Shown here one piece after another: positions 1,948 to 62,491 of a stretch of DNA of 64,000 bases; positions within the stretch are counted from its first letter, which is position 1, and the number at the start of each line of letters is the position of its first letter. The DNA is from Planctomycetota bacterium (GTDB lineage Bacteria; Planctomycetota; PLA2): NCBI GenBank assembly GCA_021776735.1, contig JAJFFH010000040.1:186001-250000 (forward strand), read 5' to 3'. The notes beneath the pieces are model-generated. The model was not told the DNA's origin and made no database searches. It saw only the letters and a program-made list of their open reading frames with translations. Position numbers and translations under genes: made by a program.

Positions 1948-3812
1948 CACACCTTCTCCACGACCGCAAGCGCGTCCGGGCGCGGCTCCGGCCAGTCTTC
2001 GTCGAGGTTGACGGCGCGTAGCTTCCCACCGACCTCCTCCACATGCAGCTTGGGGACCCAAATCCGCATCCACAACAACCCCAGAGGACCGAACAAGAAC
2101 GCCAACGCGACAAACACCCCTCCGCCGTGCGAAAGGCGTAGGCGTGCTTGCGAACGGGCCCGCCATGAGCAGAGCAAACCGACGGCGATGTTTCCGAGCA
2201 GCCAACCGAAGCGCTTGCGTCCGCGAAACCACGGGTCGAGCCAAGGATCCTTCAACACCGAAAACGACTCCACTTCCGCCGAAGCCCACGCAGCGCCGTT
2301 GAGCAGCGGCGGCCGCGCCAACGCGACCAGTCCGCCCAGGCCGGCGAGAGTGTTCTCGAGCCAACCGGTCGGCTGGAGCGTTGCTTCGCGAACGAGCGGG
2401 TCTTCTGCCGCGTCGGCGCGCCAACGCCGAAGCCGAAACACAACGCGCACGGGGTCGGCCGCCGACATCCGGCTCGACCAGCCCCACCGCTCGGGCTTGT
2501 CCGCATGATGAAAGCCGAAGCGCAGGCTGGTCGCGCCGGGTTCGATCGCGATCTCGCGAACGACTTCACCGGACAACACGTCGAACATGTGCAGCCGATC
2601 GCCGGATCGCAACATCACGCGGCCCCGGCTCCAGCCCGCAAAGTCGGCCGGCGGATCGAAGCGGACCGAGCTCTCCTCGATCGTGAACGGCGGTTGCTTT
2701 CGCCGGCTCACGAACGTGATGCGGCCGTCGCCCTGGCGAACGATCCAGAACGTGGTCGGATTGTTCCTGACCGGTGCAGAAAACAGGAGTTCGGGCTCCA
2801 CGAACTTTGTGGCCAGCGCAGCGACTTCGGCGCCGGTTTCCGTGTCCAGACACACCACCCGGCCCGCCTTGACCGTCCATGCGCCGCGACGGCGCCCGTC
2901 GGCCCTGTCGAGCGACCGGGCAAGGTCCACCAGCACACCGTGCATTCCACCCGTCCCTCCGATCCGCTGGAACGCGGTTACGCGCTTGTCGGGCAGGGTG
3001 TCCCCTGTGCGAGCGTTGACTCCCGCACGCGCGACAAACGAACCGAGCGACTTCAGCTCAACGAGTTCGCGCCAGCATCGATCGACAAGGAAGGAGCGCC
3101 GCCGAAAACGTTGCCAGTACGCGACCTCCCCCGACGGGCGCATCATGACGTGAGGATAGGTCTCAAACAGCAGCGCGGTCGTGCCGCTGCGTGCCCAGCC
3201 CAGAGCGATCAGGACCGAGCACGCAGCCAGGAGGCACAGGGCGGCGCGTGACGTGCGGCCAAACCGGCCCGCAACGGACACCAGCAGAACCGCAACGGCC
3301 CAAGACATCGCCGTCCGTATGCTTTCGCCAAGAAAGATCGGCATCAACAAGGCAGCGGGAACGCATGCCAGGAACAGCGCCGCGTGAGTCACGTCCCGCC
3401 CCAAGCCCTGGCGAATACACGCCCATGTCGCCAGCGCGAAAGCAAAGCAGAGCGCGTTCTCGGCGGCGGTGGGTGCATGCGCGGACGCGCCCCCCGTGAA
3501 CCGGACCACCAGGGCAAGCGTGCCGAGGAGCGCCGTGACCGCCAGGACGACGTGCGCGGCGCCGGCCAGCGTGCGCGCCCATTCCACGCGTGCCGCGGAA
3601 AGCGGGCGGTGGCGCGAGAAGGCGTCGTCCTCGCGGAACCAGTCCCACACGCTCTGCACGAGACCGAGGAGCGCGCCGCCCACCACCATGCAGGCCGCGA
3701 TGTCCTCGCCGTCATTGCGTGCACCGAGGGCGAACCAGGCGATCGGGATCGCGAGCAGTGCCAGGACGAGGCCCGGCAGCTCACGGAATTCGCGCCAAAA
3801 GATCGCGCGCAT
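1947..3812 (-). CDS. ABC-2-type membrane protein (first of two tandem paralogues)
   Basis: 621 aa paralogue of the next gene, with the same plan: N-terminal membrane bundle, a large soluble middle region, and two C-terminal membrane segments ending in RAVNLDEDWPEP. The start codon overlaps the stop of the ATPase gene (TGATG), and its own stop overlaps the next start in the same way, so the three proteins are translationally coupled. Two different permease-like subunits with one ATPase suggest a heteromeric exporter, as in YtrBCDEF-type systems; this is inference. A copy of the iterated 14-nt word lies inside the gene at 3305-3318, read there as SIRTAMS. Confidence 0.75.
   Translation of the reverse strand: MRAIFWREFRELPGLVLALLAIPIAWFALGARNDGEDIAACMVVGGALLGLVQSVWDWFREDDAFSRHRPLSAARVEWARTLAGAAHVVLAVTALLGTLALVVRFTGGASAHAPTAAENALCFAFALATWACIRQGLGRDVTHAALFLACVPAALLMPIFLGESIRTAMSWAVAVLLVSVAGRFGRTSRAALCLLAACSVLIALGWARSGTTALLFETYPHVMMRPSGEVAYWQRFRRRSFLVDRCWRELVELKSLGSFVARAGVNARTGDTLPDKRVTAFQRIGGTGGMHGVLVDLARSLDRADGRRRGAWTVKAGRVVCLDTETGAEVAALATKFVEPELLFSAPVRNNPTTFWIVRQGDGRITFVSRRKQPPFTIEESSVRFDPPADFAGWSRGRVMLRSGDRLHMFDVLSGEVVREIAIEPGATSLRFGFHHADKPERWGWSSRMSAADPVRVVFRLRRWRADAAEDPLVREATLQPTGWLENTLAGLGGLVALARPPLLNGAAWASAEVESFSVLKDPWLDPWFRGRKRFGWLLGNIAVGLLCSWRARSQARLRLSHGGGVFVALAFLFGPLGLLWMRIWVPKLHVEEVGGKLRAVNLDEDWPEPRPDALAVVEKV
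3305..3318 (-). repeat. Iterated word ACGGACGGCGATGT, exact copy
   Basis: Exact 14-nt copy, preceded by AAAGCAT and followed by CTTG on the minus strand. It lies inside the first permease-like gene and is read in the RTAM frame. Confidence 0.8.
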
Positions 3813-4738
3813 CAGGCGGCCTCGTCTCCGGGCGCTGGCCTGCCGGCCGCCACGCCTTCGGCCGTGTATTCGATGAAGAGATCTTCCAGCGACAAACGCT
3901 CCGGTTCGCAGGAGGCCGCGCCCAGGCGCGTCGCAGCCGCCGGTACTCCCGCGTCGCCGTCCACGACCGTCAGCAGCAGTTCGTTGCGGCGTCGGCGGGC
4001 GCGGACGAGGCCGGGCAGGCCTTCGGGGGGCGCGGGGGCGTCGCCGTCGAAGACCAAACGCCAGCGGCGGATGCGCTCCTTCACCGTGTCGAGTTCGGCG
4101 TTCACGCGCAGCGTGCCGGCGTGGATGATCGAGATGGTGTCGCACATGCGCTCGACGTCGTGCAGGATGTGCGACGTGAACAAGAGCGTGCGCCCCTCCT
4201 CCTGGATGAGGTCGATCATGACCTCGAGGAACTCGCGACGCACGACCGCGTCGAGGCCCATGCCCGGGTCGTCCATGACCACGACTTCGGGGTGCGGCGC
4301 CAGCGCAAGGGCCAAGGCAAGCTGCGCGCGCATGCCGCGCGAGAGCTTGTGGACCCGGCGATCACGGGGCAGGTTGAGGCGCTTGAGGTAGCGCGCGCAC
4401 AGATCGTCGTCGAAGGTGTCGAACGTCGCGCGCTGAAACGCCACGATGTCGTTGACCTTCATCCAGCCGACGAGCTTTTGGCCTTCAGAGACGTAGCCGA
4501 TGCGGTTGCGCAGCGTCGGCGGCATCGATGCCGCGGCATGGCCGAGAATGCGCACGCTTCCGCGTGTCGGCTCGAGCAGGCCGAGCAGGCAGCGGAGCGC
4601 CGTGGTCTTGCCCGCGCCGTTGCGGCCGAGCAGGGCGTGGATCGATCCCTCGCGCACGTTGAGCGACAGCGTGTCCAGCGCCTTGAGCGCGCCGTAGTAC
4701 ACCGTCAGTTTGTCGAACTCGATCGGATGAGAAGTCAT
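3812..4738 (-). CDS. ABC transporter ATP-binding protein, YtrB-like
   Basis: 308 aa nucleotide-binding subunit that would energise the two downstream membrane proteins. Visible motifs are Walker A GRNGAGKTT near residue 38, the signature LSRGM near residue 130, Walker B VVVMDDP near residue 155 with D-loop GMGLD, and the switch histidine in FTSHILHD. The residue after Walker B is Asp where most ABC ATPases have the catalytic Glu (DEP), so turnover may be slow. About 90 extra C-terminal residues resemble the tail seen in many ABC-2 exporter ATPases. It lies between the GntR gene, which it overlaps by 4 nt, and the permeases. Confidence 0.9.
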   Translation of the reverse strand: MTSHPIEFDKLTVYYGALKALDTLSLNVREGSIHALLGRNGAGKTTALRCLLGLLEPTRGSVRILGHAAASMPPTLRNRIGYVSEGQKLVGWMKVNDIVAFQRATFDTFDDDLCARYLKRLNLPRDRRVHKLSRGMRAQLALALALAPHPEVVVMDDPGMGLDAVVRREFLEVMIDLIQEEGRTLLFTSHILHDVERMCDTISIIHAGTLRVNAELDTVKERIRRWRLVFDGDAPAPPEGLPGLVRARRRRNELLLTVVDGDAGVPAAATRLGAASCEPERLSLEDLFIEYTAEGVAAGRPAPGDEAA

Positions 4739-5139: not shown

Positions 5140-5140
5140 C

Positions 5141-5161
5141 TGTACTAGTACAACTAGTACA
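5141..5161. promoter_or_regulatory. Palindromic operator of the GntR/ABC operon
   Basis: TGTACTAG-N5-CTAGTACA is a perfect 8-nt inverted repeat two bases upstream of the GntR start codon. It is AT-richer than its surroundings. Size, symmetry and position fit a YtrA-type operator overlapping the promoter. Binding is inferred. Confidence 0.75.
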
Positions 5162-5210: not shown

Positions 5211-8030
5211 TCAACGCTGCCGGGGCGTGAGGACGATCCCTGTCGCCCCGGCAGGGACGTTGTTTTTCACGGATCGTGCCGACGTCTGGCCCTCCCGCCA
5301 GAGCATCAGGCCGTAGCGTCCCGGCTTCAGCCCGCGAATCTCGAACGACCCGTCATCCTGCACGTCCCCGTCCGGTCCCGAGCTTGGACCGGCCGCCGAA
5401 ACGCGCACGATGCCGTCTCCTACAACATGGCCCGTGATGGTCAGCGTCCGCCGCATCACAAACGTTCGAAGACCTCCGTCCGACTTCAGGCCCTCCACGG
5501 GGTCCGCCCAGTACTCGAAGGCGCTCATCTTCAGCGTGTACCGGCCCGGCCTCAGGCCACCGAACCGGAACCGGCCGTCGGTGTCCGTCTCGATGATCCT
5601 GCCGATCGTCTTGAGCTGGACATCGACACCTGCAATGGGCTGCTGGGACTTGTCCACGATTCGGCCCACAATCACACCGCCGTCGCGCGCGCGCAGAACG
5701 ACATGGCCCCCCGCACGCACGCCCTCCAGTGGCTTCACGATCAACTCGCCCTCCGCGCGTGCAACGAGCGTGTGGGTCCCCGGGCCCACGTAGGGCAACC
5801 GGAAACGCCCGGCGAAATCGGTGCGCGCGTACGTAACGCCGCCGCCGAGAACAGACACGCCGGCACGAACCGGCCTGCCATCCGCGTCCTGCACAACTCC
5901 GGTGATGCTCCCCGCAATGGGAACCTCGATCCGAATCGGGTCAGACACCGGCACTTCGATGTCGCGCCGCATCTTCGGGCGTCCGACCGAGATCGTACAT
6001 GTTCCCGATGGTACGCCCTCCCACACGATGCGACCCGTGGCGTCCGAAAACCGACTCTTGTTGTATATGTACCGAGAGTTCGAAAACGACGAAGCCCCCA
6101 GGGTCGCGTTGACGCCGGGAACGGGCTGACCGTTTGTTCCCACAAATACCGCCACGACTGTATTCGCCTTGGGCAGCACCGTTTCGCCGGTGGTCGCCTG
6201 TTCGAGCGAGGCGTGGCCTCGCGCCCGGATCCGAATCGTCGCCGACTTGCCCGAATAGCGGGCGCTCCAGTTTCCCGACGCGTCGGTGAACGCCACGGCA
6301 TGTGCGTTCCGCGAACTCAGCTCGACGAACGCGCCGGGCACCGGACGATGATCGTGCGACAGCACCCGGCCGCTGTAGGGTCTGCCTTCCGGCAGCGCCT
6401 TCATGGTGATGACCACGCCGTCTTTGGCCGGAGCCCAGGTGAACTCGAAGCCCTCCCGATATACAGCGAACTTTCCAGTGACCGCCCGCGCGCGGAACGC
6501 ACCGTCCGATCCGGAGTAGCGACCGTTGACGGCCACCCCGGCAATGCCCGCGCCCCGCGCGTCCACGACACGGCCACTGACCATCGTCCCCGGTGCGGCC
6601 GGATCCGCCGGCACGGACTTCGGATTCACCACGATCACGAAATCCTCCGGCGACGCGTCGATCCGCAGGTTCCGGATAAGTACGTGCCCGCCCACGGCAA
6701 GCGCGAGTGACTCCGCGGAGCTGACGTGCCGGAACTCGAAACGTCCGCCGGAATCCGTGACCGCGGTCCGGGACCAAGGTCGCCATGTCTCGGCCAGGCT
6801 CAACGTCACGGCGACACCCGCAAGCGGCTGGCCCGTGGGGTCCCGCAGGGCACCGCGAAAGGCACGGCCCCGGCTCAAGCGAACACGGAACGGGTGGTTG
6901 GAGGCGAGGCGATGATCGCTCCACGACGTGAACCCGTCCGCCTCGACCCGCAGGTTCCAGAGCGCAGGCCCGATACCTTCGAAACCCACTTCGCCCTGCT
7001 CGTTCGTCCGGGCGCTCACGTAGCGCCACTTCGCATGCCGCCAGAGACTCACACGTGCGCCGGCGATGGGTTGGTCTTTCTCATCCACGACGGTTCCGAA
7101 GAACGGCACGATCGGTTGCAGGCGCAGGATCAGCCCCGCGCCCGGAAACCCCGGCGCGTATCCCGGAGCCGTCGCGATGTAGTCGGCTCGCTCGCTCGGA
7201 TCTACGCGCATCGTGAACGCCCCACCGGCTCCCGACTTCGTCTCGGCCACGACAAGGCCCCCGACAAGCGCACGCACCGTCGCCCCGGTCACGGGCTGGC
7301 CCTTCCAATCGCGGACGTAGCCGACCACCGCAGCCGTCTCGGCAACCGAGGGGTCCGGCTTTTTGTCCATCTTCGGCTCCGATGAATCGCTCCGCTGCGT
7401 GTCCGATACGCGTTGCGGGACGTGCTTACCCGGTCCGCCACGCCCCGCGACACCCCATCCAACGAACGCCACCAGCACCAACACCGCCGCAACGACCAGA
7501 GCGGCCGGAACAAGGCTGCGGCGCCGGACTACGGCGGCGAGCGGCGCAAGCCATGCCGTTCGGCTGCCATGGTGGGCGTCGAACTGAGCGCGCAACTTGT
7601 CGAGAGCACGCTTCAGCCGACTGCGAACCGTGCCGGCGGGCTGTCTCAGGCGGCGGGCGATTTCTTTCGGCCCCAGGTCGTCGAAGTAGCGCATCAACAA
7701 CACGTCCCGGTCCGGCGCCGACAGCGCCAGCAGGGCGGAAACCACACGCCGGTGCCACTCCGCGCGTTCGACCAGCTTCGCCGTGGGCGGCGTCGCTTCC
7801 GGTCGCGCGGCCTCCCGCTCCCGCGCCCTCACCCTCCCCTTGCTACGTTGCATGCTCGCCACGACATTGCGCACGACCGTCACCAGCCAGCCCGGATGTC
7901 GCGGACGGTGCGCCGCGGCGCGCGCCATCGTTTCCTGAACGGCGTCGTCGGCGTCGTGCGGGTTGCGGAGCAAGGCAAGTGCCAGCGCGCGAATGCGCGG
8001 CACCTGGGCGAGCAGGTCTTCGGTCGTCAT
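5211..8030 (-). CDS. ECF sigma factor fused to a membrane segment and carboxypeptidase-regulatory-like repeats
   Basis: 939 aa multidomain protein. Residues 1-75 match sigma region 2 (DADDAVQETMARA). Residues about 100-150 match region 4 (PDRDVLLMRYFDDLG, then IARRLRQPAGTVRSRLKRAL). A single transmembrane segment lies near residues 170-195. From about residue 235 to the end runs a series of Ig-like carboxypeptidase-regulatory-like domains, recognisable by repeats such as GQPVTGATV, DQPIAGARV and GLRPGRYTL. The sigma part would be cytoplasmic and the repeats outside the membrane, so release or tethering of the sigma domain could be the signalling step (inference). It is last in an operon with a cupin and a PDZ protein. 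Both domains are in one uninterrupted frame. Confidence 0.85.
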   Translation of the reverse strand: MTTEDLLAQVPRIRALALALLRNPHDADDAVQETMARAAAHRPRHPGWLVTVVRNVVASMQRSKGRVRAREREAARPEATPPTAKLVERAEWHRRVVSALLALSAPDRDVLLMRYFDDLGPKEIARRLRQPAGTVRSRLKRALDKLRAQFDAHHGSRTAWLAPLAAVVRRRSLVPAALVVAAVLVLVAFVGWGVAGRGGPGKHVPQRVSDTQRSDSSEPKMDKKPDPSVAETAAVVGYVRDWKGQPVTGATVRALVGGLVVAETKSGAGGAFTMRVDPSERADYIATAPGYAPGFPGAGLILRLQPIVPFFGTVVDEKDQPIAGARVSLWRHAKWRYVSARTNEQGEVGFEGIGPALWNLRVEADGFTSWSDHRLASNHPFRVRLSRGRAFRGALRDPTGQPLAGVAVTLSLAETWRPWSRTAVTDSGGRFEFRHVSSAESLALAVGGHVLIRNLRIDASPEDFVIVVNPKSVPADPAAPGTMVSGRVVDARGAGIAGVAVNGRYSGSDGAFRARAVTGKFAVYREGFEFTWAPAKDGVVITMKALPEGRPYSGRVLSHDHRPVPGAFVELSSRNAHAVAFTDASGNWSARYSGKSATIRIRARGHASLEQATTGETVLPKANTVVAVFVGTNGQPVPGVNATLGASSFSNSRYIYNKSRFSDATGRIVWEGVPSGTCTISVGRPKMRRDIEVPVSDPIRIEVPIAGSITGVVQDADGRPVRAGVSVLGGGVTYARTDFAGRFRLPYVGPGTHTLVARAEGELIVKPLEGVRAGGHVVLRARDGGVIVGRIVDKSQQPIAGVDVQLKTIGRIIETDTDGRFRFGGLRPGRYTLKMSAFEYWADPVEGLKSDGGLRTFVMRRTLTITGHVVGDGIVRVSAAGPSSGPDGDVQDDGSFEIRGLKPGRYGLMLWREGQTSARSVKNNVPAGATGIVLTPRQR

Positions 8031-8453: not shown

Positions 8454-10616
8454 CTACCGTGCCGTCGGCACGATGACGATCTCAAGCTCGCGGTCGTCGC
8501 GCACCACCTTTAGCTTGACCTTTTGGCCGGATTGGCACTTCGCGACCGCGTCGTTGAGTTCGTCGATCGTCCGGATCGGGGTCTTTCCGAACGCGACGAT
8601 CTTGTCGTCGGTGCGCAGCCCGGCCCGGACCGCCGGCCCCTGTTCGCTCATCCCCAGGACGACCACGCCGTTGCCGGACGAACGCATCGCCAGGACGCCC
8701 AGGTCGGCACCGCGCTGCGGCTGCACGATCACGGCCCGCGCCCGGCGCACCCGAACCGGTTGCGCCGCAGCGAAAAAGAACCCGCTCAAGAATCCCGGCG
8801 TGAGCAGTCCGAGCGGCGAGTACGAGTCGAGCGTCACGCCGTCCGCGTCGCGGCGAATGCCGAACGCCACGCCCTTCAGGTACTTCATGAGGGTCGAGGC
8901 CTTCGGAAAGCGTCCGCGGTTGAACCACTCGGGCGGAAGCTGCGGTGCGACCATCGGCAGAAACGCCGCCGACGCCTTCACAAGCCCGCGGGCATTCACG
9001 TACGCCAGAGCGACAAGATTGTCCGTCTCCCCGCCGGTCAGGCCCTTCATGACCGCCTTGAAGACATCGCCGTCCGTTCCCAACGACTTTTGTCCCTCGG
9101 TGCCCCACTTCGTGAGCGCCTCGACGACGCGATTCTTGTTCGTCGAGAGGAACAGGTGGTTCCTGGCGATGGCGAACGTCAGCGGCAACGGCAGGTTCGG
9201 GTTGGAAACCTGCGTGCCCTTGATGGTTTCGGTGAGCTGAACGTCGTCGAACCCGACGCCGAACGCCTGGGCGTGTTTTTTCGCCAGCGCGAGCACGCGG
9301 CCAAACGCCTCCACGTCGCGAATCTCCAGGCCGAAGACCGCGTCCGGAAACGGCATGCCCGGGTACACGAGCACGGCCGCCTCGTCGCCGAACGCCGCAA
9401 GCAGGTCCTTTTGGAAATCGAGCCCGGTCTCGCGCTGGAACTCGTGCGCCAATCTGCCCACGAGCAAGTCCTCGGTGCCGGGCAGCAGGTCCGCCGCGAC
9501 CTCGTGCAACCGCTTCACGAACAGCGCCGCGTCGAACTTGAGGGCGACCACGGCGAGCGCACCCGGAGGCGCGACCTGCACCGATTGCAATCCGCCGGGA
9601 AACGCGTCGAGCAGACGCCAGACACCGGTCGGCTGGCCGTCGAGCACGAACCCGAAGCTCTCCCGCACGCCGCCGTTGCTGATCGAGACCGCCCATCCGA
9701 GCCCCTTCACCGAAGCAAGGCCGGCCTTTTGGGACAGCTCATGGAACAGCGGTGAGATTGCCGACTCGAGCGCCTTGGCCGCCTTGGCCACGTCTCCCCA
9801 CGCGAAAATGATGGTCTGATCCGCTGCAAAACGCCTACGGACGGCGATGTACCCGGGATCCTGCTCGAGGGGCCGGCGCACGGCACGGTTCGCCGCGGCT
9901 TCGAACCGTTCCGGCGAGCTCGCGACGATCCACTTATCGCCGTTCACATCGGCGTAGTAGTGCTGCTTGAAGTAACTCTGGGCGTCGATCCGTTCCGGCG
10001 CGTCGATGATGTGCAGCACTTCACGGCCGGCCAGCTTGATCTTCTTTGTGTTGACGGCCGCGTGACGGGTTCCGCTCAGGAGGAGTTGCTTGAGCCTCGG
10101 ACCCGGTTCGAGCACGGCCGAAAAGTCGAGCGCCAGGTAGTACCGCAGTCGGTACGCACCGATGCCCGCGATCTCCGCCGTCGCCACCTGCCCGAGAAGC
10201 GTCAGTACCTGCTTCGCGGCAAGCGGGTTGCTCGCATTGAGCCGGAGCACCTTCGGCTTTTTCAGGCCCGCGCCCTCGATGCGCAGCGTGACGCCGTACA
10301 AGGCAAACGACACCTTGCCGGGCAGCCAATCCTTCAGCGAAAAGGCCGTGCCCGGGATTTGTTTCTTGAGGAAGTCCGCGAGCGACGCGTTCTCGTCGAG
10401 TCCGAGTTTCTGGAACGTCGGCTTGAGAAAGGCCCTCATCTCCGGATCGTCGAGCAGCCGAATCACGTCAAGCTTGCCCAGCCCGTCGAGGAGGGCTCCG
10501 CCATCGACCTCGACGTAGGCGACCGCATCCGCGGAATGGCGCCCGGCGTGGGCGTCTTGGGCCGCAGCCGGCCAGGCGAGAAAAGAGACAACAGCAAGCG
10601 CGAGCAGGTGGCGCAT
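8454..10616 (-). CDS. Exported protein with C-terminal PDZ domain, DUF3352-like
   Basis: 720 aa protein. The chosen ATG follows a CTAGGAGG ribosome binding site and begins a clear signal peptide (MRHLLALAVVSFLAWPAAAQ), so it is preferred over an in-frame start 13 codons upstream. The body resembles DUF3352-type proteins. The last 95 residues form a PDZ domain, with GPAVRAGLRTDDKIVAFGKT carrying the usual carboxylate-binding fold features. No protease catalytic triad is evident. It is first of three genes with the cupin and ECF fusion, 14 nt apart. Two copies of the iterated word lie inside it (9064-9077 and 9837-9850) in opposite orientations. Confidence 0.75.
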   Translation of the reverse strand: MRHLLALAVVSFLAWPAAAQDAHAGRHSADAVAYVEVDGGALLDGLGKLDVIRLLDDPEMRAFLKPTFQKLGLDENASLADFLKKQIPGTAFSLKDWLPGKVSFALYGVTLRIEGAGLKKPKVLRLNASNPLAAKQVLTLLGQVATAEIAGIGAYRLRYYLALDFSAVLEPGPRLKQLLLSGTRHAAVNTKKIKLAGREVLHIIDAPERIDAQSYFKQHYYADVNGDKWIVASSPERFEAAANRAVRRPLEQDPGYIAVRRRFAADQTIIFAWGDVAKAAKALESAISPLFHELSQKAGLASVKGLGWAVSISNGGVRESFGFVLDGQPTGVWRLLDAFPGGLQSVQVAPPGALAVVALKFDAALFVKRLHEVAADLLPGTEDLLVGRLAHEFQRETGLDFQKDLLAAFGDEAAVLVYPGMPFPDAVFGLEIRDVEAFGRVLALAKKHAQAFGVGFDDVQLTETIKGTQVSNPNLPLPLTFAIARNHLFLSTNKNRVVEALTKWGTEGQKSLGTDGDVFKAVMKGLTGGETDNLVALAYVNARGLVKASAAFLPMVAPQLPPEWFNRGRFPKASTLMKYLKGVAFGIRRDADGVTLDSYSPLGLLTPGFLSGFFFAAAQPVRVRRARAVIVQPQRGADLGVLAMRSSGNGVVVLGMSEQGPAVRAGLRTDDKIVAFGKTPIRTIDELNDAVAKCQSGQKVKLKVVRDDRELEIVIVPTAR
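9064..9077 (-). repeat. Iterated word ACGGACGGCGATGT, exact copy
   Basis: Exact copy, followed by CTTC on the minus strand, read in the PDZ protein as GTDGDVF. Confidence 0.8.
9837..9850 (+). repeat. Iterated word ACGGACGGCGATGT, exact copy
   Basis: Exact copy on the plus strand inside the same minus-strand PDZ gene, so here it is read backwards as YIAVR. The opposite copy is 770 nt away. Confidence 0.8.
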
Positions 10617-12245: not shown

Positions 12246-13550
12246 GTGTTCACCGTCGTGCTCGTGGCCGCCGCGATCGGGGTCACGGTCTGGCTGTTGC
12301 GCGGCACGTACGGGGAACGCGCGGTCTCGCCGCGACCCACGACGAACACGGAGCGGACTCGACCGCGCGGGAACTCCGCCGAGAGCGAAGGCGGGGTCGC
12401 AAAAACTCCCGACGATCCTGAAAACATCGCCGTCCGTACGCCTCCTTCCGGAAGTGTCTGGGCCCAGCTCCCCCCAAAACTTCAAGACCGCGGCATCCGC
12501 GTCGTCGTGGCCTATCCGCTCAAGGTGCGGCAGTACTACGGCGGGGACTACGCGACCAAGCGCGTCTGGCTTGTCGTCGGCGAGAGTTCCAAGGAGCGTC
12601 TGCCGGTGCCGCGCGGCGCGCATGCGTTCGCGCTCAAGACCGACCCGGACGAACCCGAGTTCCTGCTCGACGAGTTGACCGGCGGGCCGGTGCGCGTGCA
12701 GCGGCGCGTGCGCGTGACGGGGCGGCTTGTCGATGCCGGCGGCGAGCCCGTCGTCGATCTGTACCTGACGGCGCGGCTTGGGGCGCCCGAGGACTGGAAC
12801 ATGCGTTTTACGCGAGCAAAGGACTCGTGGATCTCGGCGACGGGCGACCTGCGTGTCGATCCGTTCGCGCAGGCCGAGGCGATCACGGACGAGAACGGGC
12901 GCTTCACGCTCAACGCCGTGCCGGGCCTGAACACGCTTTCGTACGGCGAGAACCGGGCCCGCGGGACCGCGCCGCTGAACGTCGTCGGCGATACCGACAT
13001 CGGGGACTGCGTCGTGCCTCCGGCGCCCGTTCCCGCGGACCGGTCGGCAACCACACGCCTTGCGGGAGTGGTCCTCGACGCGGCCGGACAGCGGCACCCG
13101 GGCGCCACGGTCAAGGTTTGGGCGGGCAACGTCGGCGCTCCGTTCGCCACCTGCCGCGCTGACTCCAGCGGCGCGTTTTCCTTCACCCGCCTGCCCATCG
13201 GGCCCGCGATGCTGTGGGCCAGTGCGGAAACGCGACCCTACGTGGTCGTGCCGGAACAGTGCTCCGGGCGCGTCACGCTTCCCTGCGGCACGTCCGTGAT
13301 CCTGCGCGCGACGCGACCCACCGAGTACGCCGTCTTGAAAGCGCAGTTCTCCGGTTTTTGTCTGTTCTTGCGCGGCGACCTGCTTTTGAGCGGCGGCGCG
13401 CTCACTCCGGGCGATCTGGTGCGCGTGCCGCCGGGCGCCTACACGATCATTGCCGTCCGCGACCCGGGGATCGTCCGCGCCGACGTCACCGTTTCAGCCG
13501 GCGACGTGCTCGACCTCACGAGCATCCTGTTTCACACCTGGACCCCATAG
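12246..13550 (+). CDS. Membrane-anchored carboxypeptidase-regulatory-like protein
   Basis: 434 aa. A GTG start directly after the ATPase stop gives an N-terminal membrane anchor (FTVVLVAAAIGVTVWLLR). About 60 polar residues follow, then at least two carboxypeptidase-regulatory-like Ig domains (one starting VTGRLVDAGGEPVVDLYL, one starting LAGVVLDAAGQRHPGATV). No peptidase domain is present. It sits between the MoxR-like ATPase and the VWA protein, so it may be an extracytoplasmic client or sensor of that pair (inference). The iterated word at 12424-12437 is read here as NIAVR. Confidence 0.7.
   Translation: MFTVVLVAAAIGVTVWLLRGTYGERAVSPRPTTNTERTRPRGNSAESEGGVAKTPDDPENIAVRTPPSGSVWAQLPPKLQDRGIRVVVAYPLKVRQYYGGDYATKRVWLVVGESSKERLPVPRGAHAFALKTDPDEPEFLLDELTGGPVRVQRRVRVTGRLVDAGGEPVVDLYLTARLGAPEDWNMRFTRAKDSWISATGDLRVDPFAQAEAITDENGRFTLNAVPGLNTLSYGENRARGTAPLNVVGDTDIGDCVVPPAPVPADRSATTRLAGVVLDAAGQRHPGATVKVWAGNVGAPFATCRADSSGAFSFTRLPIGPAMLWASAETRPYVVVPEQCSGRVTLPCGTSVILRATRPTEYAVLKAQFSGFCLFLRGDLLLSGGALTPGDLVRVPPGAYTIIAVRDPGIVRADVTVSAGDVLDLTSILFHTWTP
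12424..12437 (-). repeat. Iterated word ACGGACGGCGATGT, exact copy
   Basis: Exact copy on the minus strand, inside a plus-strand gene, followed by TTTC. Confidence 0.8.
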
Positions 13551-13560: not shown

Positions 13561-14637
13561 ATGCGCTGGCACTTCACCCACCACCGGCCGCTCCGCGAGC
13601 TGATCCGCAGCCTGCTCGGCATCTTCCGGCAGCTTCTCGTCGTGTTCGACGGCGACGTCGAGCAGTCGCTGACGTATCTGGATGAAATCGGAGAGCGCTA
13701 TCGCCTGTGGCGCGACGACTTCGGGCCCGCCGACTTTCGCCGCCTGCTTGAACAGAGAGGACAGGTCGCACCGGGCGCCGCGGGGCTGGCACTCACACGC
13801 AAGGGCGAACGGGCGCTGCGCCGGCAGATGCTCGACGAGGTCTTTCAAAAAGCACTGGCGCGCGGGCCCGGCGACCACCGCACGCCGCACGCCGCCGGCG
13901 CCGGAGAACCCACCGACGAAACGCGACCGTACGCGTTCGGCGATCCGTTCGACACCGTCGATCCCTCACGCACGCTGCACAACTGGCTCCTGCGCACGGG
14001 CGGCATCGGCCATCCCGAGGAAGCCGACCTCGAGGTGCGCGAGCGCGAGTTCCACACCTCGTGCGCCACCGTGCTGCTGATCGACATCTCGCACTCGATG
14101 ACGCTGTATGGCGAGGACCGCATCACACCCGCCAAGCGTGTCGCGCTCGCGCTTACCGAACTGATCCTCACAAAATACAAGAAGGACACCCTCGATGTCG
14201 TCCTGTTCGGCGACGAGGCGCACGTCGTCCCGCTCGAACAGCTCCCCTACATCTCCAACGGCCCCTACCACACCAACACGCGCGCGGGCCTCGTCACCGC
14301 CCAGGAGATCCTCAAGCGGCGCAAGGCGACGAACCGCCAGATCATCATGCTGACCGACGGCAAGCCCTCGTGCATCCACGAGGAAGGCCACCTCTACAAG
14401 AACCCGTTTGGCCTCGACCGCAAGGTCGTCGCGAAGACACTCGAGGAAGCGGGCCGCTGCCGCCGCAAGGGCATCCCGATCACGACGTTCATGCTGACCG
14501 AAGACCCGTACCTCCGTGGCTTCATCGAGGAGTTCACCGAAGTCAACCGCGGCCGCGCGTTCTTCGCACAGGGCGGCCGACTCGAATCCTTCGTCCTCGT
14601 CGATTTTCTCCGCAACCGCCGCCGCCGAATGCGATAA
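13561..14637 (+). CDS. VWA-domain protein of the MoxR/CoxE type
   Basis: 358 aa cytoplasmic protein. A helical N-terminal region of about 170 residues precedes a von Willebrand A domain with the metal-ion-dependent adhesion motif DISHS (near residue 182), the downstream T in GPYHTNTRAG, and MLTDG, matching DxSxS...T...D. No signal peptide or membrane segment is seen. Linked to a MoxR-like ATPase two genes upstream, so the two probably act as an ATPase-adaptor pair in complex or cofactor assembly, as known for MoxR-VWA families. The target here is unknown. Confidence 0.87.
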   Translation: MRWHFTHHRPLRELIRSLLGIFRQLLVVFDGDVEQSLTYLDEIGERYRLWRDDFGPADFRRLLEQRGQVAPGAAGLALTRKGERALRRQMLDEVFQKALARGPGDHRTPHAAGAGEPTDETRPYAFGDPFDTVDPSRTLHNWLLRTGGIGHPEEADLEVREREFHTSCATVLLIDISHSMTLYGEDRITPAKRVALALTELILTKYKKDTLDVVLFGDEAHVVPLEQLPYISNGPYHTNTRAGLVTAQEILKRRKATNRQIIMLTDGKPSCIHEEGHLYKNPFGLDRKVVAKTLEEAGRCRRKGIPITTFMLTEDPYLRGFIEEFTEVNRGRAFFAQGGRLESFVLVDFLRNRRRRMR

Positions 14638-14640: not shown

Positions 14641-14704
14641 ACATCGCCGTCCGTTTGCTGACGCCCGAATTGAGCCTGAGACAGCACACGGACGGCGATT
14701 TTCG
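14641..14704. repeat. Inverted pair of the iterated word between VWA and secretin genes
   Basis: Three nt after the VWA stop is an exact reverse copy of the 14-nt word (14641-14654). A second copy in the opposite orientation lies at 14688-14700 with one change near its end. The identity continues outward of the loop (TGCTG/CAGCA), giving a stem of about 17 bp with one mismatch and a 21-nt loop (about 14660-14680), followed by TTTT. It would fold as a strong RNA hairpin and could end VWA transcription, as inverted uptake-sequence pairs do in Neisseria and Pasteurellaceae. Confidence 0.8.
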
Positions 14705-51273: not shown

Positions 51274-51537
51274 ATGGCACGATCGATCAACCTGTCACTC
51301 ACCGACGAGCTGCGCGCGTTCCTCGACGAGAACTCGGGTGACGGAACGCTGTTCTCGACGCCGAGCGAGTTCGTCCGCGACCTGATTCGCAGCAAGAAGG
51401 ACCGCCAAGACGCGGCGGCACTGCGCCAGGCGGTGCTCGAAGGATACGCAGACGCTCGAGACGGTCGCGCGCACGAGTACACCGGCGACCTTCGCGCCAT
51501 GCTCGAAGCGCATCGAGGTCGCCGCGGAGGTTCATGA
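51274..51537 (+). CDS. parD: ParD-like antitoxin
   Basis: 87 aa with a ribbon-helix-helix N-terminus (RSINLSLTDELRAFLDEN, then TPSEFVRDLIRSKKDR) and an acidic, helical C-terminus that would bind the toxin. AAGGAGGAG ribosome binding site 6 nt upstream. The stop overlaps the parE start by 4 nt (ATGA). Probably binds its own promoter (51213-51244) with ParE. Confidence 0.92.
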   Translation: MARSINLSLTDELRAFLDENSGDGTLFSTPSEFVRDLIRSKKDRQDAAALRQAVLEGYADARDGRAHEYTGDLRAMLEAHRGRRGGS

Positions 51538-51908
51538 GCAAGCTGCTCCTCACCGAACGCGCTCTCACCGACATCGACGCGATCGAACGCTACTCGGTGG
51601 AGCGTTGGGGCCGCCGGATCGCCGACCAATACCTGGCGGATCTGGACGCCGCTCTCGGCCGCTTAGAGGAAGACCTCTCGCTCTTCAAGGGGCGTCACGA
51701 CTACTCCGGCCGCCTCCGGTTCTACAACGTTCGCGAGCACACGCTCGTGGGTGACGTAGTCGGCGATGTCGGCTTCGTACTGACCGTGTGGCACGGCAGC
51801 ATGGACTTCATCGACCGGCTCCCGAGGACCGAGCCTGGTCTCCTGCTCGAAGCCGAGATCATGGCCCGCCAGATCGAAGGTGAGCGCGACGCCGACCACG
51901 CCGAGTGA
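51534..51908 (+). CDS. parE: ParE/RelE-superfamily toxin
   Basis: 124 aa. ParE fold features: LLLTERALTDIDAIERYSVERWG, QYLADLDAALGRLEE, YSGRLRFYNVREHTLV and a final strand FVLTVWHGSMDFIDRL. ParE toxins usually block DNA gyrase, RelE members cleave mRNA; the RHH antitoxin favours ParE. About 25 extra C-terminal residues. The full length and intact promoter suggest it is active in an otherwise decayed patch. Confidence 0.9.
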   Translation: MSKLLLTERALTDIDAIERYSVERWGRRIADQYLADLDAALGRLEEDLSLFKGRHDYSGRLRFYNVREHTLVGDVVGDVGFVLTVWHGSMDFIDRLPRTEPGLLLEAEIMARQIEGERDADHAE

Positions 51909-52796: not shown

Positions 52797-53846
52797 ATGG
52801 CCCGTGCGCCCATGGACGCCCACGAACTTGTCGGTGCTGACCTTAACGAAGGCCACCCCGTCGGGCGCGCCGCGAACACGACCGGCCCCCGCAAGCGCCG
52901 ACGCCGCCGCATGATCTGGATCGCGCTGCTTGTCCTGGTGGTCGCCGAGGTCGCCGCCCGCCTGCTCGTCGGCCATCCGCAGGCGGAACCGCTGCCCACG
53001 CTCCAAGTGCGCGCGCACCCGACCTGCGGCTGGGCGATGGTTCCGAACTCGTGGCACCGAACCTACGCGCACAAGGTCAAGGTCAACGCGTTCGGCCTGC
53101 GCGGCCCGGAGCCGGTGCAGGGTCCGGGACCGAAAGTCGTCGTCGTGGGCGACACCTTCGTCTACGGCCTCGGCCTCGCGGACCACGAGACCTTCCCGGC
53201 GCAGTTGCAAACCGCAATGGACGGCCATGCGGTCGTGAACGCGGGCGTCCGCGGCTATTCCACAAACCAGGAAGTCGCGCTGCTCGACGAGCTCCAAGAG
53301 CAAACGGACGGCGATGTCATCGGCATCACCGTCTTCTGCTGGCAATGGGACGATCTGTATGAAACCAACATCGGGGCAGCGCACAATAGGATCGAGGGGC
53401 GCGGGGATGTGGCCTTCGACACCCGCACGAAAATCGAGGGCTGGACGTGGTGGAAATGGCAGGGCCGCGAGCTGCTGCGCAGGAGTGCGCTCCTGATGAC
53501 CCTGCACGAGTGGCGGAAGACCCCGGCCGATCAGATCCCTCGCAATCCGGACTGGAACAGGGTGATCGCCCAACTCGAGCAGGCGCGCGCCGTGTCGAAG
53601 TCCAACAGGTTCGTGTTGTTCGTCGTCCCGCATCCCCTGGGCATTCACGACAAGAACTTCCCGAGCCGCGAGCTGGAACAACAACTCCTCGCCCGCTGGC
53701 AAGGCCAAAAGATCTACCCGCTGGAGCCGCTACGGACAGCGTTCAGCAAGCCCCCGGTGATCCCGTACGACGGCCACTACGCCGCCGAGGCAATGGCCGT
53801 GATGGCACAATCGGTCGCGCACGCGCTGGCAACAAGGAGCGACTGA
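52797..53846 (+). CDS. SGNH/GDSL-hydrolase-like membrane-anchored protein
   Basis: 349 aa from ATG 52797; ATG 52911 or 52719 are alternatives. A basic stretch and one membrane helix (MIWIALLVLVVAEVAARLL) put the body outside the cytoplasm. The SGNH block I reads VVVVGDTFVYGLGLADHETF, so the nucleophile Ser of GDS is Thr. Block II-like NAGVRGYSTNQE and the C-terminal YDGHYAAEA (Asp and His) are present. It could be a weakened or non-catalytic acyl-transfer protein. The iterated word at 53304-53317 is read as QTDGDV. Confidence 0.72.
   Translation: MARAPMDAHELVGADLNEGHPVGRAANTTGPRKRRRRRMIWIALLVLVVAEVAARLLVGHPQAEPLPTLQVRAHPTCGWAMVPNSWHRTYAHKVKVNAFGLRGPEPVQGPGPKVVVVGDTFVYGLGLADHETFPAQLQTAMDGHAVVNAGVRGYSTNQEVALLDELQEQTDGDVIGITVFCWQWDDLYETNIGAAHNRIEGRGDVAFDTRTKIEGWTWWKWQGRELLRRSALLMTLHEWRKTPADQIPRNPDWNRVIAQLEQARAVSKSNRFVLFVVPHPLGIHDKNFPSRELEQQLLARWQGQKIYPLEPLRTAFSKPPVIPYDGHYAAEAMAVMAQSVAHALATRSD
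53304..53317 (+). repeat. Iterated word ACGGACGGCGATGT, exact copy
   Basis: Exact copy with AGCAA before and CATC after, in the SGNH-like gene. Confidence 0.8.
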
Positions 53847-54807: not shown

Positions 54808-55794
54808 CTAGGTGCGCAGCTTCGCCAGTTCTTCGGTCAACACCGGGACCACTTCGAACGCGTCGCCGACGATGCCGTAGTCGGCGACCTTGAAGATCGG
54901 GGCTTCGGAGTCCGTGTTGATGGCGACGATGCACTTGCTGGTGCGCATGCCGGCCAGGTGTTGGATCGCGCCTGAGATGGCGATCGCGATGTACAGCTTC
55001 GGGCTCACCGTTTTACCGGTTTGGCCAACCTGCTCTTCGTGCGGGCGCCAGCCCGCGTCCACCACCGCGCGGCTTGCGCCGCACACGCCGCCGACCGCTT
55101 CGGCGAGGTTTTCGACCAAGTGCCAGTTCTCCGGGCCCTTCAGGCCGCGGCCGCCCGAGACGATGATGTCCGCTTCGGTCAGGTCGAGCTTCTCGCTGGC
55201 TTTGGCGAGAACCTCTTTCACGACCGTGCGGATGTCGTCCTGGGTCACGCCCGCGTCGATGGTCTCGGTCGCAGCGCTCTTGCCCGCTTCGGCGGCGGCC
55301 GGCTCAAAGACGTTCGGGCGCAGGGTGACAACAACGCAATCCGTGGAGCCGCGCACTGTGGCCATGGCCTTGCCGGCGTAGACCGGTTTTTGGGCGCAGA
55401 CATCGCCGTCCGTAAGCTTTAGTTCGACGAGGTCCGTCAAGATTGCGCTTTGTGTTGCTGCGGCCAGCGCGGGCGCCAGGTCGCGGCCGGTCGTGGACGC
55501 CGGGAAGATCACGACGTTGGGCGACGATGCGGCGACGGCTTTCAGCATCGCCTTGAGGTGGCCGTCCACCGTGAAATGCGCGAACGCGTCGGCGTCGGCG
55601 ACGAGCACGCGGTCTGCGCCCAGGGCCGCCGCGTCGTCCGCGAGCGTTGTCACGCCCTGGCCGATCAGCACCGCGTCGATGCCTTCGACGATGGTGCCGT
55701 CGCCGCCGAGGCCTTGCGCGGCACCCATCATTTCCGCGGCGGACTTCTTAAGCTTGCCGCCCGGCGCTTCGAGGAACACGCAAACCCGGGTCAC
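54808..55794 (-). CDS. etfA: Electron transfer flavoprotein, alpha subunit
   Basis: 328 aa. The C-terminal FAD domain carries [40 protein letters not shown], then [28 protein letters not shown] and [23 protein letters not shown]. With EtfB it moves electrons from acyl-CoA or other dehydrogenases to the quinone pool. It overlaps etfB by 4 nt. The iterated word at 55400-55413 lies in the linker of the N-terminal domain (KLTDGDV), where length varies in the family. Confidence 0.96.
55400..55413 (-). repeat. Iterated word ACGGACGGCGATGT, exact copy
   Basis: Exact copy with AAAGCTT before and CTGC after, in etfA in the TDGDV frame. Confidence 0.8.
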
Positions 55795-57847: not shown

Positions 57848-58348
57848 CTAGAGCACGAATCGCTTGATGCCGTCCTTGAGGAGTTCCACGTTGAAGTTGA
57901 TGAGCAGGCCGATCCGGACATCGGACAGCTTCATGTATGTCAGGAGCTGCGCCTTATGGATTCCAAGAACTTGGGCGACACTTTTCAGTTCGACAACCAG
58001 ACAGTGGTCGATCAGGAAATCTACCCGATAGCCACACTCCAAGCGGACTCCCTTGTACTCGACCGGAATCGGAGCCTGAAGCTCGAATGGAATCTTGGCG
58101 AGCGTCAGCTCGTGCGCAAGGCACTGTTCGTAGGTCGATTCCAGGAGACCCGGGCCAAGCGCCCGGTGGACCTCGAGCGCACAACCGATGACACGGTGCG
58201 ACAGCTCATCGAACTCGTGTGCTCGTCGCTCGCGCACATCGTCCAGCTTCTCCTCGTCGATCAGCTTGCGCAGTTCGGGGTCGGCGGCCTCGCGGCGCGC
58301 CAGGATCTCTAGCGCGTCTGTCGTTTCGGTTCGCTTGCTCTTGCTCAC
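57848..58348 (-). CDS. GxxExxY-family protein (PDDEXK_3-like)
   Basis: 166 aa from a GTG start that overlaps the lepB stop (GTGA). The family name motif is seen as GPGLLESTYE near residue 75, followed by LECGYRVDFLIDHCLVVELKSV (nuclease-like D...ExK), HKAQLLTYMKLSDVRIGLLI and NFNVELLKDGIKRFVL. The first 40 residues are an extra charged extension. The family may be PD-(D/E)XK-like nucleases tied to repeats; the function is unproven. Repeats of the expected kind lie directly downstream. It was probably inserted after lepB. Confidence 0.88.
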   Translation of the reverse strand: MSKSKRTETTDALEILARREAADPELRKLIDEEKLDDVRERRAHEFDELSHRVIGCALEVHRALGPGLLESTYEQCLAHELTLAKIPFELQAPIPVEYKGVRLECGYRVDFLIDHCLVVELKSVAQVLGIHKAQLLTYMKLSDVRIGLLINFNVELLKDGIKRFVL

Positions 58349-59721
58349 CGGATCAGCTTGACGCGGGTGGGGCCCTTGTAGACCGGGGGGGCGTGGATCG
58401 GCCAAAAGACCGAGAACGCGCGGCCGATCAGGTTGCGGCGCGGGACGAACGAGCGGTCGATCGTGTCCCAGGTCTTGACGTCGCCGCTCTTGAAGCGGCG
58501 GACGTGGCCGAAGATGTCGGCCTGGACATAATGGACCGTGTCGGGGTCGGCCAAGGTCGGTTCCATCGACGGCGGGTTGTTGACCCCGCGGCGCTGGTCG
58601 AACGCTTCCCACTGGATCACTTCGCCGCTGTTGAGTTCGACGCGGACCACGCGCCACTCGCGACTGTCCTTGCTCGAACTCGTGTTGTCGCCGAACGCCA
58701 TGAAGTGGTCCGCCGGAATGTCCCACTCGGTGCGGCCGTTGGTGCCCGACTGGTACATCACGTCGCGATCGATGAAGATGTCTTTCACGATGGCCCTCAG
58801 ACCCGTGCCACGGATCGCGATGCGATTGCCGAAGTCGTCCAGCCGCGGCGGCTCCGCGGGCGGCGACGGATAGGGAAAGACGAATTCGTCGCCATCGATG
58901 TTGACGATCAGGGTGTCGTCCACGTTCGTGAACGAGACCTCGAGGGAATCGCCGTCCGTCAGCTTTTGATCGAGAGGAAACTCCGTCTCCTTGCCGTTTC
59001 GCTCGCAGACGCAGACGCTCTTGTTCTTGCCGAGGACCAGCCGGTGGTTTTGGCCGTGCTCGCGGATGATGATCTCGAGCGTGCCCGCGCGTTCGATCTC
59101 GACGTTGAATCCGACGCGCACGTCGCCGACCTCGTGCGTGGTCGAGGACAGGTTCGGCCAGCTCGGGTAGGGCATGACCTTCGGCCGGAAGAACAGCTCC
59201 GACGGGCCCGGGGTATCGACCGTGAAGCGGCGTCTCTCTTCGTCGATGCTCCACTCCTCGCCCGCCTGCCACACCGTCGTGTCGACGAAGTTGCCCGGGG
59301 CCTCGAACGGCGGCGGGTAGTACCGGTTGAGCATCTGGTCGCGCGCGCCGGCGGGCTTGCGGGCGATCGCCCACGTCTTGCCCTGATCCGGGCTGGTCCA
59401 GATGTCGCCGTCGGCGACGCGCAGGCGGTCGCCCGGCAGGCCGATCAGGCGCTTGATGAAGTTGATGTTCTCGTTGACCGGGTAGCGAAAAACGATGACT
59501 TCCCAGCGCCGCGGCTCACGCCGCTGGTAGACGAACTTGTCGACCAGGATGCGGTCGCCGTGCCGGCGATAGCCGCTCGGGCCCGCGTGGTCGCCAGACA
59601 GCGTCGGCCGCATCGAATGCGTCGGGATGCGGAAGGCCTCGATGCAGTAGTGGCGGATGACGAGCGCCATCGCGATGGCGACGGCGAACGCCTCGATGTT
59701 GTCCCGAATGAACCTCCCCAT
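58345..59721 (-). CDS. lepB: Signal peptidase I with a large insertion
   Basis: 458 aa. N-terminal helix (AFAVAIAMALVIRHYCIEAF) then the catalytic Ser in IPTHSMRPTL and Lys in INFIKRLIGLPGD; the box E residues GDNTSSSKDSRE are near residue 370. Between Lys and box E about 250 residues intervene, far longer than in E. coli LepB, including a beta-rich segment with LTDGDSLEVSFTNVDDTLIVNIDGDEF. Planctomycete signal peptidases often are long. The GTG of the next gene overlaps its stop. Confidence 0.92.
   Translation of the reverse strand: MGRFIRDNIEAFAVAIAMALVIRHYCIEAFRIPTHSMRPTLSGDHAGPSGYRRHGDRILVDKFVYQRREPRRWEVIVFRYPVNENINFIKRLIGLPGDRLRVADGDIWTSPDQGKTWAIARKPAGARDQMLNRYYPPPFEAPGNFVDTTVWQAGEEWSIDEERRRFTVDTPGPSELFFRPKVMPYPSWPNLSSTTHEVGDVRVGFNVEIERAGTLEIIIREHGQNHRLVLGKNKSVCVCERNGKETEFPLDQKLTDGDSLEVSFTNVDDTLIVNIDGDEFVFPYPSPPAEPPRLDDFGNRIAIRGTGLRAIVKDIFIDRDVMYQSGTNGRTEWDIPADHFMAFGDNTSSSKDSREWRVVRVELNSGEVIQWEAFDQRRGVNNPPSMEPTLADPDTVHYVQADIFGHVRRFKSGDVKTWDTIDRSFVPRRNLIGRAFSVFWPIHAPPVYKGPTRVKLIR
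58946..58959 (-). repeat. Iterated word, two-mismatch copy
   Basis: ACGGACGGCGATTC on the minus strand, preceded by AAAAGCTG as in other copies, in the lepB insertion (KLTDGDS). Confidence 0.6.
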
Positions 59722-59741
59722 GCGCTCCCGTTTCGCTCTCG

Positions 59742-61541
<1,800 letters not shown>

Positions 61542-61615
61542 GGAGAGCCCGGATTATAGGGGTGGGTGCCATCCACCCCTTTCTTGCCGCCCGGGGCGTG
61601 GATGTCGCCCCGCCC

Positions 61616-61839
61616 ACACTATTCATGGCCACGTGGAGCATCGGCCCGACGCGTTCGTGCGGACATAATCCCGAACGGCAACGGCGCCGTTCAAACGTTC
61701 CGGCCGTTCGTTCTGGGCGAGGACAGATTGTCGAGGTCGAGGAACGACGACGAAGGCGGCTCGGAGGAGCCGTCGAGGAGAAGAGACGCGGAGATCGGCG
61801 ATATGGACCGGCCAGAACCCGCGTGGTCGTGAATGGTGC
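61616..61839. mobile_element. MITE-like/structured intergenic element, copy 2
   Basis: A 224-nt element in opposite orientation to 35013-35219. Identity is high over the hairpin-rich middle (61690-61800), while one flank is about 20 nt longer here. Ends: ACACTATTCATGGCCACG and, inward from the other side, GCACCATTCACGACCACG. It lies between the lepA start and the rdgB stop, with no coding content seen in the 337-nt gap. Confidence 0.75.
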
Positions 61840-61878
61840 GGGCGAAAGGGGGGGTAAGGGGGCGCGGGGGCAGGGGGA

Positions 61879-62481
61879 CTAGGTCGGTTCGATACGGGCG
61901 CGGAGTTCCGGGTCGGCCAGCTTTTTGGCCAGCGCACGCAACGCGACGCCGCGGTGGCTGATTGCGTTTTTTTGCTCGGGCGAGAGCTCCGCGGTCGTGC
62001 AGCTCGACGGCGCGTGAAAAAAGACGGGGTCGTATCCGAATCCGTGGTCCCCGCGCGGTGCCGCGATGATGCGCCCTTCCACGCGCCCCTCCGCCTCGAC
62101 GACAACGTCGTCCCCGACCGCGATCGCGATGTGGCAGAAAAAATACGCCTCGGGTTCGGACAGTCCCTCTTCGCGGATCCGGTCCAGCACCTTTTGGAGG
62201 TTGGCGGCGTCGTCGCCGGGCTCGCCCGCATAGCGCGCGGAATGCACGCCGGGTTCGCCGCCCAGCGCAGGAACCACAAGCCCCGAATCGTCCGCCAGAC
62301 ACGGGGCGCGCAGGTACGAAGCAAAAACCAGCGCTTTCTTGCGCGCGTTTTCGCCAAACGTCGCGCCGGCTTCCTCGACGTCGGGCAGATCGACGGCGAT
62401 GACCGCGCGAATTCCGAGCGGTCCGAGAATCTCGCGGACCTCGTGCAGCTTGTGCGGGTTCTTCGAGCCGATCAGGATCAT
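61879..62481 (-). CDS. rdgB: XTP/dITP pyrophosphatase (HAM1 family)
   Basis: 200 aa. It hydrolyses non-canonical purine nucleotides. Features: MILIGSKNPHKLHEVREIL, TFGENARKKALVFAS, LADDSGLVVPALGGEPGVHSARYAG, FGYDPVFF and SHRGVALRAL. The start ATG is the ATG inside a copy of the iterated word (62478-62491), so that word also forms part of the 5' leader. It follows rph by 38 nt, the usual rph-rdgB pairing. Confidence 0.95.
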   Translation of the reverse strand: MILIGSKNPHKLHEVREILGPLGIRAVIAVDLPDVEEAGATFGENARKKALVFASYLRAPCLADDSGLVVPALGGEPGVHSARYAGEPGDDAANLQKVLDRIREEGLSEPEAYFFCHIAIAVGDDVVVEAEGRVEGRIIAAPRGDHGFGYDPVFFHAPSSCTTAELSPEQKNAISHRGVALRALAKKLADPELRARIEPT

Positions 62482-62491
62482 CGCCGTCCGT
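62478..62491 (-). repeat. Iterated word, one-mismatch copy at the rdgB start
   Basis: ACGGACGGCGATGA on the minus strand, preceded by AAAAGCAA; the ATG in it is the rdgB start codon. Confidence 0.7.

Follow-up and report, generated by a model that had tools for sequence, protein, structure and literature searches.

What kind of signal is a 14-nt word that recurs on both strands of a stretch of bacterial DNA, in genes and between them? The stretch analysed here, hereafter the window, is 64 kb long (G000:C34:186001-250000) and belongs to a draft genome of 5.97 Mb in 71 contigs that is assigned to the Planctomycetota. The word, ACGGACGGCGATGT, was noticed in the window from its letters alone, and the original prediction likened it either to a DNA uptake sequence or to chromosomal words of the Chi and KOPS (FtsK-orienting polar sequence) kind. 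Our analysis indicates that the word is probably the core of a putative DNA uptake sequence, which would have evolved independently and be convergent with the DNA uptake sequence (DUS) of Neisseria and the uptake signal sequence (USS) of Haemophilus. Judged by its distribution, the site appears to match such sequences in behaviour, while its letters differ from those of the known ones.

Abundance and anatomy of the site

A recount of the window reproduced all ten exact and eight near-copy positions listed originally and added five further copies with one or two mismatches (2178, 21642, 22275, 35297, and 63477). With up to two mismatches allowed and the exact copies included, 23 copies were present, against a mean of 1.35 in shuffled sequences, and none of 100 shuffles reached 23. 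The whole genome contained 748 exact copies (355 + 393), and the reversed word, used as a control, was absent. Under an order-5 Markov model, 0.727 Mb should contain 0.15 copies of the 14-mer on its two strands, which scales to about 1.2 for the genome; the observed number was about 600 times this expectation. The chance of an exact copy in the window was tiny, as had been claimed, but the estimate of one in a thousand did not hold, the Markov model giving about 0.013 per window.

The 14-mer was a slice of a larger site with an invariant core of 12 bp, ACGGACGGCGAT. The core occurred 1,520 times in the genome (762 and 758 by strand), with about 15 copies expected and one copy of the reversed control, which corresponds to about one core per 3.9 kb on both strands; 14 of the cores were located in the window. 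In 0.727 Mb, 186 cores were found where 1.8 were expected, the top score among the 12-mers with at least 15 occurrences. The core itself was strict. Analysis of its 36 one-letter variants in the same 0.727 Mb showed an excess of C2A (30 copies, 1.1 expected) and T12G (12 copies, 2.0 expected), and the other 34 variants summed to 28 copies with about 27 expected, the largest reaching 5 against 1.2. The genome holds hardly any reserve of decaying core copies.

In an alignment of 279 cores from 1.105 Mb, conservation extended beyond the core to about -22 and +20. The upstream flank was A-rich and purine-rich, its A-rich peaks being strongest in the intergenic copies, and the downstream flank consisted of G, then T/C, and then pyrimidines. 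The 5' element AGC was found at -5 to -3 in 180 of these sites; another 41 had the AG shifted to -4/-3, mostly as CAGGA, and 58 had neither. The flanks noticed originally, AGC plus two bases before the word and pyrimidines after it, were borne out, with the shifted element as a second 5' variant. The 5' flank was stronger in intergenic than in coding copies. A correlation between the 5' and 3' flanks (r -0.22 over the 279 sites, p 2e-4) dropped to -0.16 (p 0.09) within the intergenic class and to 0 within the coding class; it was therefore mostly a mixture effect, and no compensation between the flanks is claimed. A second dispersed word, GGGGGGCGGGGG, was also observed, with 63 copies on both strands in 1.433 Mb of the genome (for example at C34:226581) and without obvious conservation in the flanks of the 14 copies viewed.

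Copies in genes, between genes, and in pairs

Genes were predicted with a codon-usage script written for this analysis and not with a published caller. In 1.433 Mb, 139 of 313 cores overlapped no predicted gene, a three-fold enrichment over the 14.6% of bases that were intergenic (p 1e-36). In 1.105 Mb, 157 of 279 cores overlapped predicted genes; the word shared the gene's strand in 102 cases and lay on the opposite one in 55 (p 2e-4). Unequal orientation within genes has been reported for DUS and USS (PMC2346458). Two peptides were in strong excess in the proteins predicted from this 1.105 Mb: residue frequencies lead one to expect 5.5 occurrences of TDGD, but 90 were found, and IAVR, which is how the opposite strand is mainly read, was found 49 times against 11.4 expected. 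The word itself spelled 80 of the TDGD and 39 of the IAVR peptides, whereas codon usage predicted 5.5% and 1.5%, respectively. A repeat at the protein level or a codon-usage effect would fit the coding copies, which read TDGD in 54 of 67 cases on the same strand and IAVR in 26 of 36 on the opposite one. However, this explanation is almost certainly wrong, being refuted by the cores outside predicted genes, the use of both strands, and the scarcity of other spellings (10 of 90 for TDGD and 10 of 49 for IAVR). As proposed originally, selection acts on the DNA and not on a peptide, and the word is held in genes by selection on DNA.

The gene for pyruvate phosphate dikinase (PPDK) carried the word in frame at residue 14. 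Its alignment was gap-free across the word in all 30 homologs displayed (of 80 loci), two of which read TDG there, and this site, in the one protein looked at closely, fits the expected placement in variable loops and linkers. Alignment to the sample of G003, a genome of the same family, was possible for 11 of 103 coding sites. Six of these pairs were gap-free over the five residues of the site and five were gapped, with the protein of the present genome longer in two, and no insertion of constant length was found among the 11. These alignments show that the copies are built mainly by substitution. A small mobile or repetitive element (repetitive extragenic palindrome, REP, or miniature inverted-repeat transposable element, MITE) that spread by insertion and left remnants would also reach a high copy number and be found in one species only among those searched. 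This origin was rejected as highly improbable because the conservation faded at the limits of the flanks without any longer shared unit and the homolog alignments revealed no common inserted unit. Nor were the copies confined to a recently duplicated set of sequences; they lay in unrelated contexts and arise by substitution.

The intergenic cores crowded at the 3' ends of genes, 56% of 138 distances being below 60 nt compared with 24% for random intergenic points. All 19 core pairs less than 200 bp apart were inverted, and the 14 folded pairs less than 100 bp apart gave -24 to -64 kcal/mol. A transcription terminator or an RNA element of 3' ends would explain both the crowding past gene ends and the folding, but it is very unlikely: the 157 coding cores and 4 of the 14 folded pairs overlapped predicted genes, single copies were not palindromic, and the cores near gene ends ran along the gene direction in 74 cases and against it in 64. 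Moreover, uptake sequences occur in terminators too; in some species DUS are present in up to 37% of them and USS in up to 22% (PMC13020248).

Neighbouring cores at least 200 bp apart were on the same strand in 125 cases and on opposite strands in 145 (p 0.25) in contigs of up to 334 kb, the order being judged within draft contigs and not along a mapped origin and terminus. Chi and KOPS are short words that are over-represented genome-wide and strand-biased along replichores. The present site shares the over-representation but is longer, and its strands alternate randomly within contigs. The Chi/KOPS option is disfavoured by this lack of strand bias between neighbours, while the other option originally offered, an uptake sequence, was supported.

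Mobile DNA, competence genes, and relatives

Tyrosine-integrase matches were found at 15 places on 13 contigs. The stretches fetched around them, on all integrase contigs except C20, C34, and C59, contained 24 cores in 240.7 kb where 61.3 were expected (P 5e-8); the XerC/D-like recombinases of C20 and C59 were presumed to be housekeeping enzymes. Six integrase contigs, a set picked after the fact, had no core in the 112.7 kb read (28.7 expected). For C8, C9, and C57 this covers the full contig, for C41 and C61 20 kb apiece, and for C19 40 kb. Some of the six are clearly mobile: C61 encodes a terminase-like protein and primase-like ones, C9 a type I restriction system, and C57 a DNA methylase. 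Seven other short contigs (nine were fetched, and C18 and C23 were left out) held 10 cores against 22.3 expected, with eight on C25, two on C26, and none on C10, C12, C13, C15, and C24. On larger contigs, integrases were located within core gaps at C34 14931-33057, at C50 36634-54149, and on C45 in a gap that starts at or before 120001 and ends at 142788; the placement was less clear at C45 178349-188418 and on C51. Since gaps of at least 10 kb covered 30% of random points in three contigs, single gaps prove little. Over the fetched stretches, the word is thinned around integrases, that is, it is depleted in recently acquired DNA.

The C34 integrase shares 87-90% identity with its counterparts on C8, C9, and C61, an argument against contamination as the source of these three contigs; the identity was 43% for C41 and 27% for C57, and C19 was outside the comparison. 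C34:14931-33057, C8, C9, and C61 form a family of integrative islands with these closely similar integrases and varied cargo, and a small gene beside the integrases resembled an excisionase by eye. On C10, one of the core-free short contigs, a TIR-domain protein with ankyrin repeats (L264:2248-4083) is perhaps a defence gene.

The main rival to an uptake sequence is a self-marker that is read inside the cell across the genome, such as a Chi-like or HIP1-like site for a nucleoid, recombination, or defence protein, with no link to uptake. The depletion in mobile DNA, the strict core, and the origin by substitution fit any slowly gained marker, and some restriction and phage genes are present. 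Such a marker is nonetheless rather unlikely. The neighbouring cores showed no strand runs as in Chi or KOPS, the always-inverted close pairs are left unaccounted for by a marker itself, and 12 bp plus flanks is long for internal marker words. For intergenic uptake sequences, an inverted arrangement has been reported (PMC2346458).

A search for competence and pilus genes, as recommended originally, detected ComEC, DprA, PilT, and other pilus-like proteins, together with a weak ComEA-like match. ComEC passed PF03772 and the NCBIfam cut-off for the ComEC N-terminal domain, and DprA passed the Pfam cut-off. PilT was above the NCBIfam cut-off in two places: at C42:137561-140369, with PilB-like and PilC-like proteins below theirs, and at C59:110907-114903, adjoining two further ATPases of the PilB/GspE kind. 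The ATPases of type IV pilus type form two separate clusters, on C59 and C42. A PilM-like protein and a secretin of the GspD/PilQ type were detected with scores below the cut-offs, and 18 prepilin N-termini were found in the genome. Two basic minor pilins, at C67:115789-116358 (isoelectric point 11.1) and C53:23948 (10.4), are the first candidates for the receptor by their charge only; we take them to be PilW-like from gene order. Four cores were located within 3 kb around the minor pilin of C67.

The case for an uptake sequence gains from the inverted pairing, the intergenic excess, the depletion around integrases, and the pilus and competence genes. In the mechanism that we propose, a pilin of the type IV pilus would bind the site in extracellular double-stranded DNA, retraction of the pilus would draw the DNA in by way of the secretin, one strand would be imported by ComEA and ComEC, and DprA and RecA would recombine it. 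Since import would favour site-bearing DNA, alleles carrying a perfect site would continually replace those without one (molecular drive). Under such drive, copies would accumulate by point substitution wherever they are tolerated, and newly arrived DNA would be without them.

In a set of 293 further genomes from the phylum, one copy of the word was found in 19 and none in 274; the 58 relatives included in this number comprised three genomes with one exact copy and none with more. No core was found in 1.41 Mb around the best 80 PPDK loci, which came from many phyla and included no close match. A flanked 23-mer, with about 57 copies estimated in the present genome, was absent from the genome-contig collection, in which records near this genome may be left out and relatives with other flanks would be missed. 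A flanked 22-mer had no match in viral contigs, and a shorter pattern matched 31 viral stretches once each, a number judged chance-sized from an assumed collection size. The open-access literature searched contained neither a planctomycete DNA uptake sequence nor a mention of the 14-mer. In a 100-kb sample of the present genome the core reached a z score of 53, compared with 26 for the best word of any relative. The candidate word of G003 was rejected as a clustered tandem of about 30 bp that was not dispersed. Tandem repeats of this length with ATCGTCAGATGTTG were observed in L054 (G003:C1) around 7087-7190 and 17535-17780, and ATCGTCAGATGTTG occurred 13 times in 4 five-kb bins of the 497 kb of G003. 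The best word of G001, CCCCGGAGCCCC (stretches L044-L048, L246, and L247), was also rejected, although it came nearest to being comparable; it was G/C-rich, with 11 copies in 112 kb over 9 three-kb bins.

Several results weigh against an uptake sequence. Exact copies numbered zero in four genomes of the same family, and one of 12 genomes of the same order had a single copy. DUS and USS exist as dialects across families, whereas no comparable dispersed word was found in the 31-497 kb sampled from each of seven relatives (497 kb of G003 and 31-112 kb each of G001, G002, G006, G007, G009, and G015, with 31-63 kb for the last four); the samples of these four, and the 18.6 kb of G004, are so small that a rarer word could be missed. 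Sharing across the family is not strictly required, since five genomes of the Neisseriaceae have no obvious DUS (PMC3630211). By a coarse proxy for gene conservation, the sites did not favour conserved genes: genes with a homolog in the sample of relatives carried 1.40 sites per 10 kb and genes without one carried 1.63. C21 was not depleted, with 9 cores in the 20 kb that surround a broken integrase, and no mobile genes were found among the proteins scanned in the core-free stretch of the window (24726-53303). In the uptake machinery, ComEC was below the NCBIfam equivalog cut-off, DprA was below its NCBIfam cut-off, PilB, PilC, PilM, and the secretin were under the NCBIfam equivalog or subfamily cut-offs, and the ComEA-like helix-hairpin-helix protein (L140:8952-9410) reached 24.9 bits against a cut-off of 53.1. 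ComEC was also present in three of four same-family genomes and in 15 of 17 relatives, all with zero or one copy of the word. Homologs of the C67 pilin were found in G003 (54%) and G002 (41%), both without the word, so the presence of this pilin alone cannot confer specificity. This pattern fits, without proving it, a history in which uptake is old and its specificity new.

The copies in the window are listed in Table 1. The original observation that exact copies avoid 25-53 kb extended to the core, none being found from 24714 to 53304 (28.6 kb), the longest core gap in the three contigs read whole. A ParE-like toxin was observed at 51534-51908, within this stretch.

Table 1. Copies of the word and the core-free stretch in the window (positions counted from the first base of the window; genes as predicted).
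Feature	Position	Strand	Context
Exact 14-mer	3305-3318	-	Core 3307-3318; in gene 1947-3812 (-), same strand
Exact 14-mer	9064-9077	-	In gene 8454-10616 (-), same strand
Exact 14-mer	9837-9850	+	In gene 8454-10616 (-), opposite strand
Exact 14-mer	12424-12437	-	In gene 12246-13550 (+), opposite strand
Exact 14-mer	14641-14654	-	Intergenic; core 5 bp past the end of gene 13561-14637; left half of inverted pair with 14688
Core, 14-mer with one mismatch	14688-14699	+	Right half of inverted pair with 14641
Exact 14-mer	17625-17638	+	In gene 16716-18020 (-), opposite strand
Exact 14-mer	21498-21511	+	In gene 21456-22016 (+), close to gene start
Core, 14-mer ending C	23442-23453	-	In protein-kinase-domain gene 22770-24899 (-)
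Exact 14-mer	24712-24725	-	In kinase-domain gene 22770-24899 (-); left border of 28.6-kb core-free stretch
Stretch without perfect core	24726-53303		Copies with one or two mismatches at 24954, 35297, 37784, 46648, 49206
Exact 14-mer	53304-53317	+	In gene 52812-53846 (+); right border of 28.6-kb core-free stretch
Exact 14-mer	55400-55413	-	In gene 54808-55779 (-)
Core, 14-mer with two 3'-end mismatches	58948-58959	-	In gene 58345-59721 (-)
Core, 14-mer ending A	62480-62491	-	Overlaps start of gene 61879-62481 (-)

Comparison with known uptake sequences

To our knowledge, a self-label for the uptake of own-kind DNA has so far been described in two families of Proteobacteria. It is fairly likely that sequence-specific uptake evolved here for a third time, independently and, if the phylum is right, outside the Proteobacteria; it would so far be known from one genome, with an all-or-none core of 12 bp that is nearly free of decayed copies and would mark own DNA against phage-like, restriction-bearing islands. 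A third origin in an unrelated lineage, if true, would offer an independent case in which to study what causes such words to evolve, the candidate causes being mate choice, receptor bias with molecular drive, and defence. The absence of the word from relatives that keep ComEC would make it possible to ask what a lineage changes on acquiring specificity, and models of drive could be fitted to the measured scarcity of decayed copies and of cores near integrases. The HIP1 (highly iterated palindrome 1) word of cyanobacteria is a very abundant, lineage-restricted palindromic octamer of debated role; the present site is likewise abundant and lineage-restricted, but it is asymmetric and longer than 20 bp.

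The 9-bp core of the USS occurs 1,465 times in H. influenzae, flanked by AT-rich segments, and uptake needs a perfect inner core (PMC7811141). Similar to the Haemophilus USS, the present site has more than 1,000 copies, a fixed inner core, and graded flanks, which are AT-rich in USS, with no general orientation bias and with intergenic inverted-repeat forms (PMC7811141, PMC2346458). In contrast to USS, the word is unrelated, has a longer core, and was not found in relatives. Its density of one per 3.9 kb compares with one per about 1.2 kb for the USS of H. influenzae, as derived from the count in PMC7811141 and the genome size.

The receptor of the Neisseria DUS is the minor pilin ComP (PMC12616744), and tolerating a single mismatch raises the number of sites of one DUS dialect by 21% (PMC3630211). 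Unlike DUS, the present word is unrelated in its letters, showed no dialects in the relatives read, and has only candidate receptors. As in the Neisseriaceae, some members of the family are without an obvious word (PMC3630211). The site also resembles DUS in its high copy number (thousands in DUS), in its placement at 3' ends, DUS being found in terminators, and in the presence of a type IV pilus system (PMC3630211, PMC13020248).

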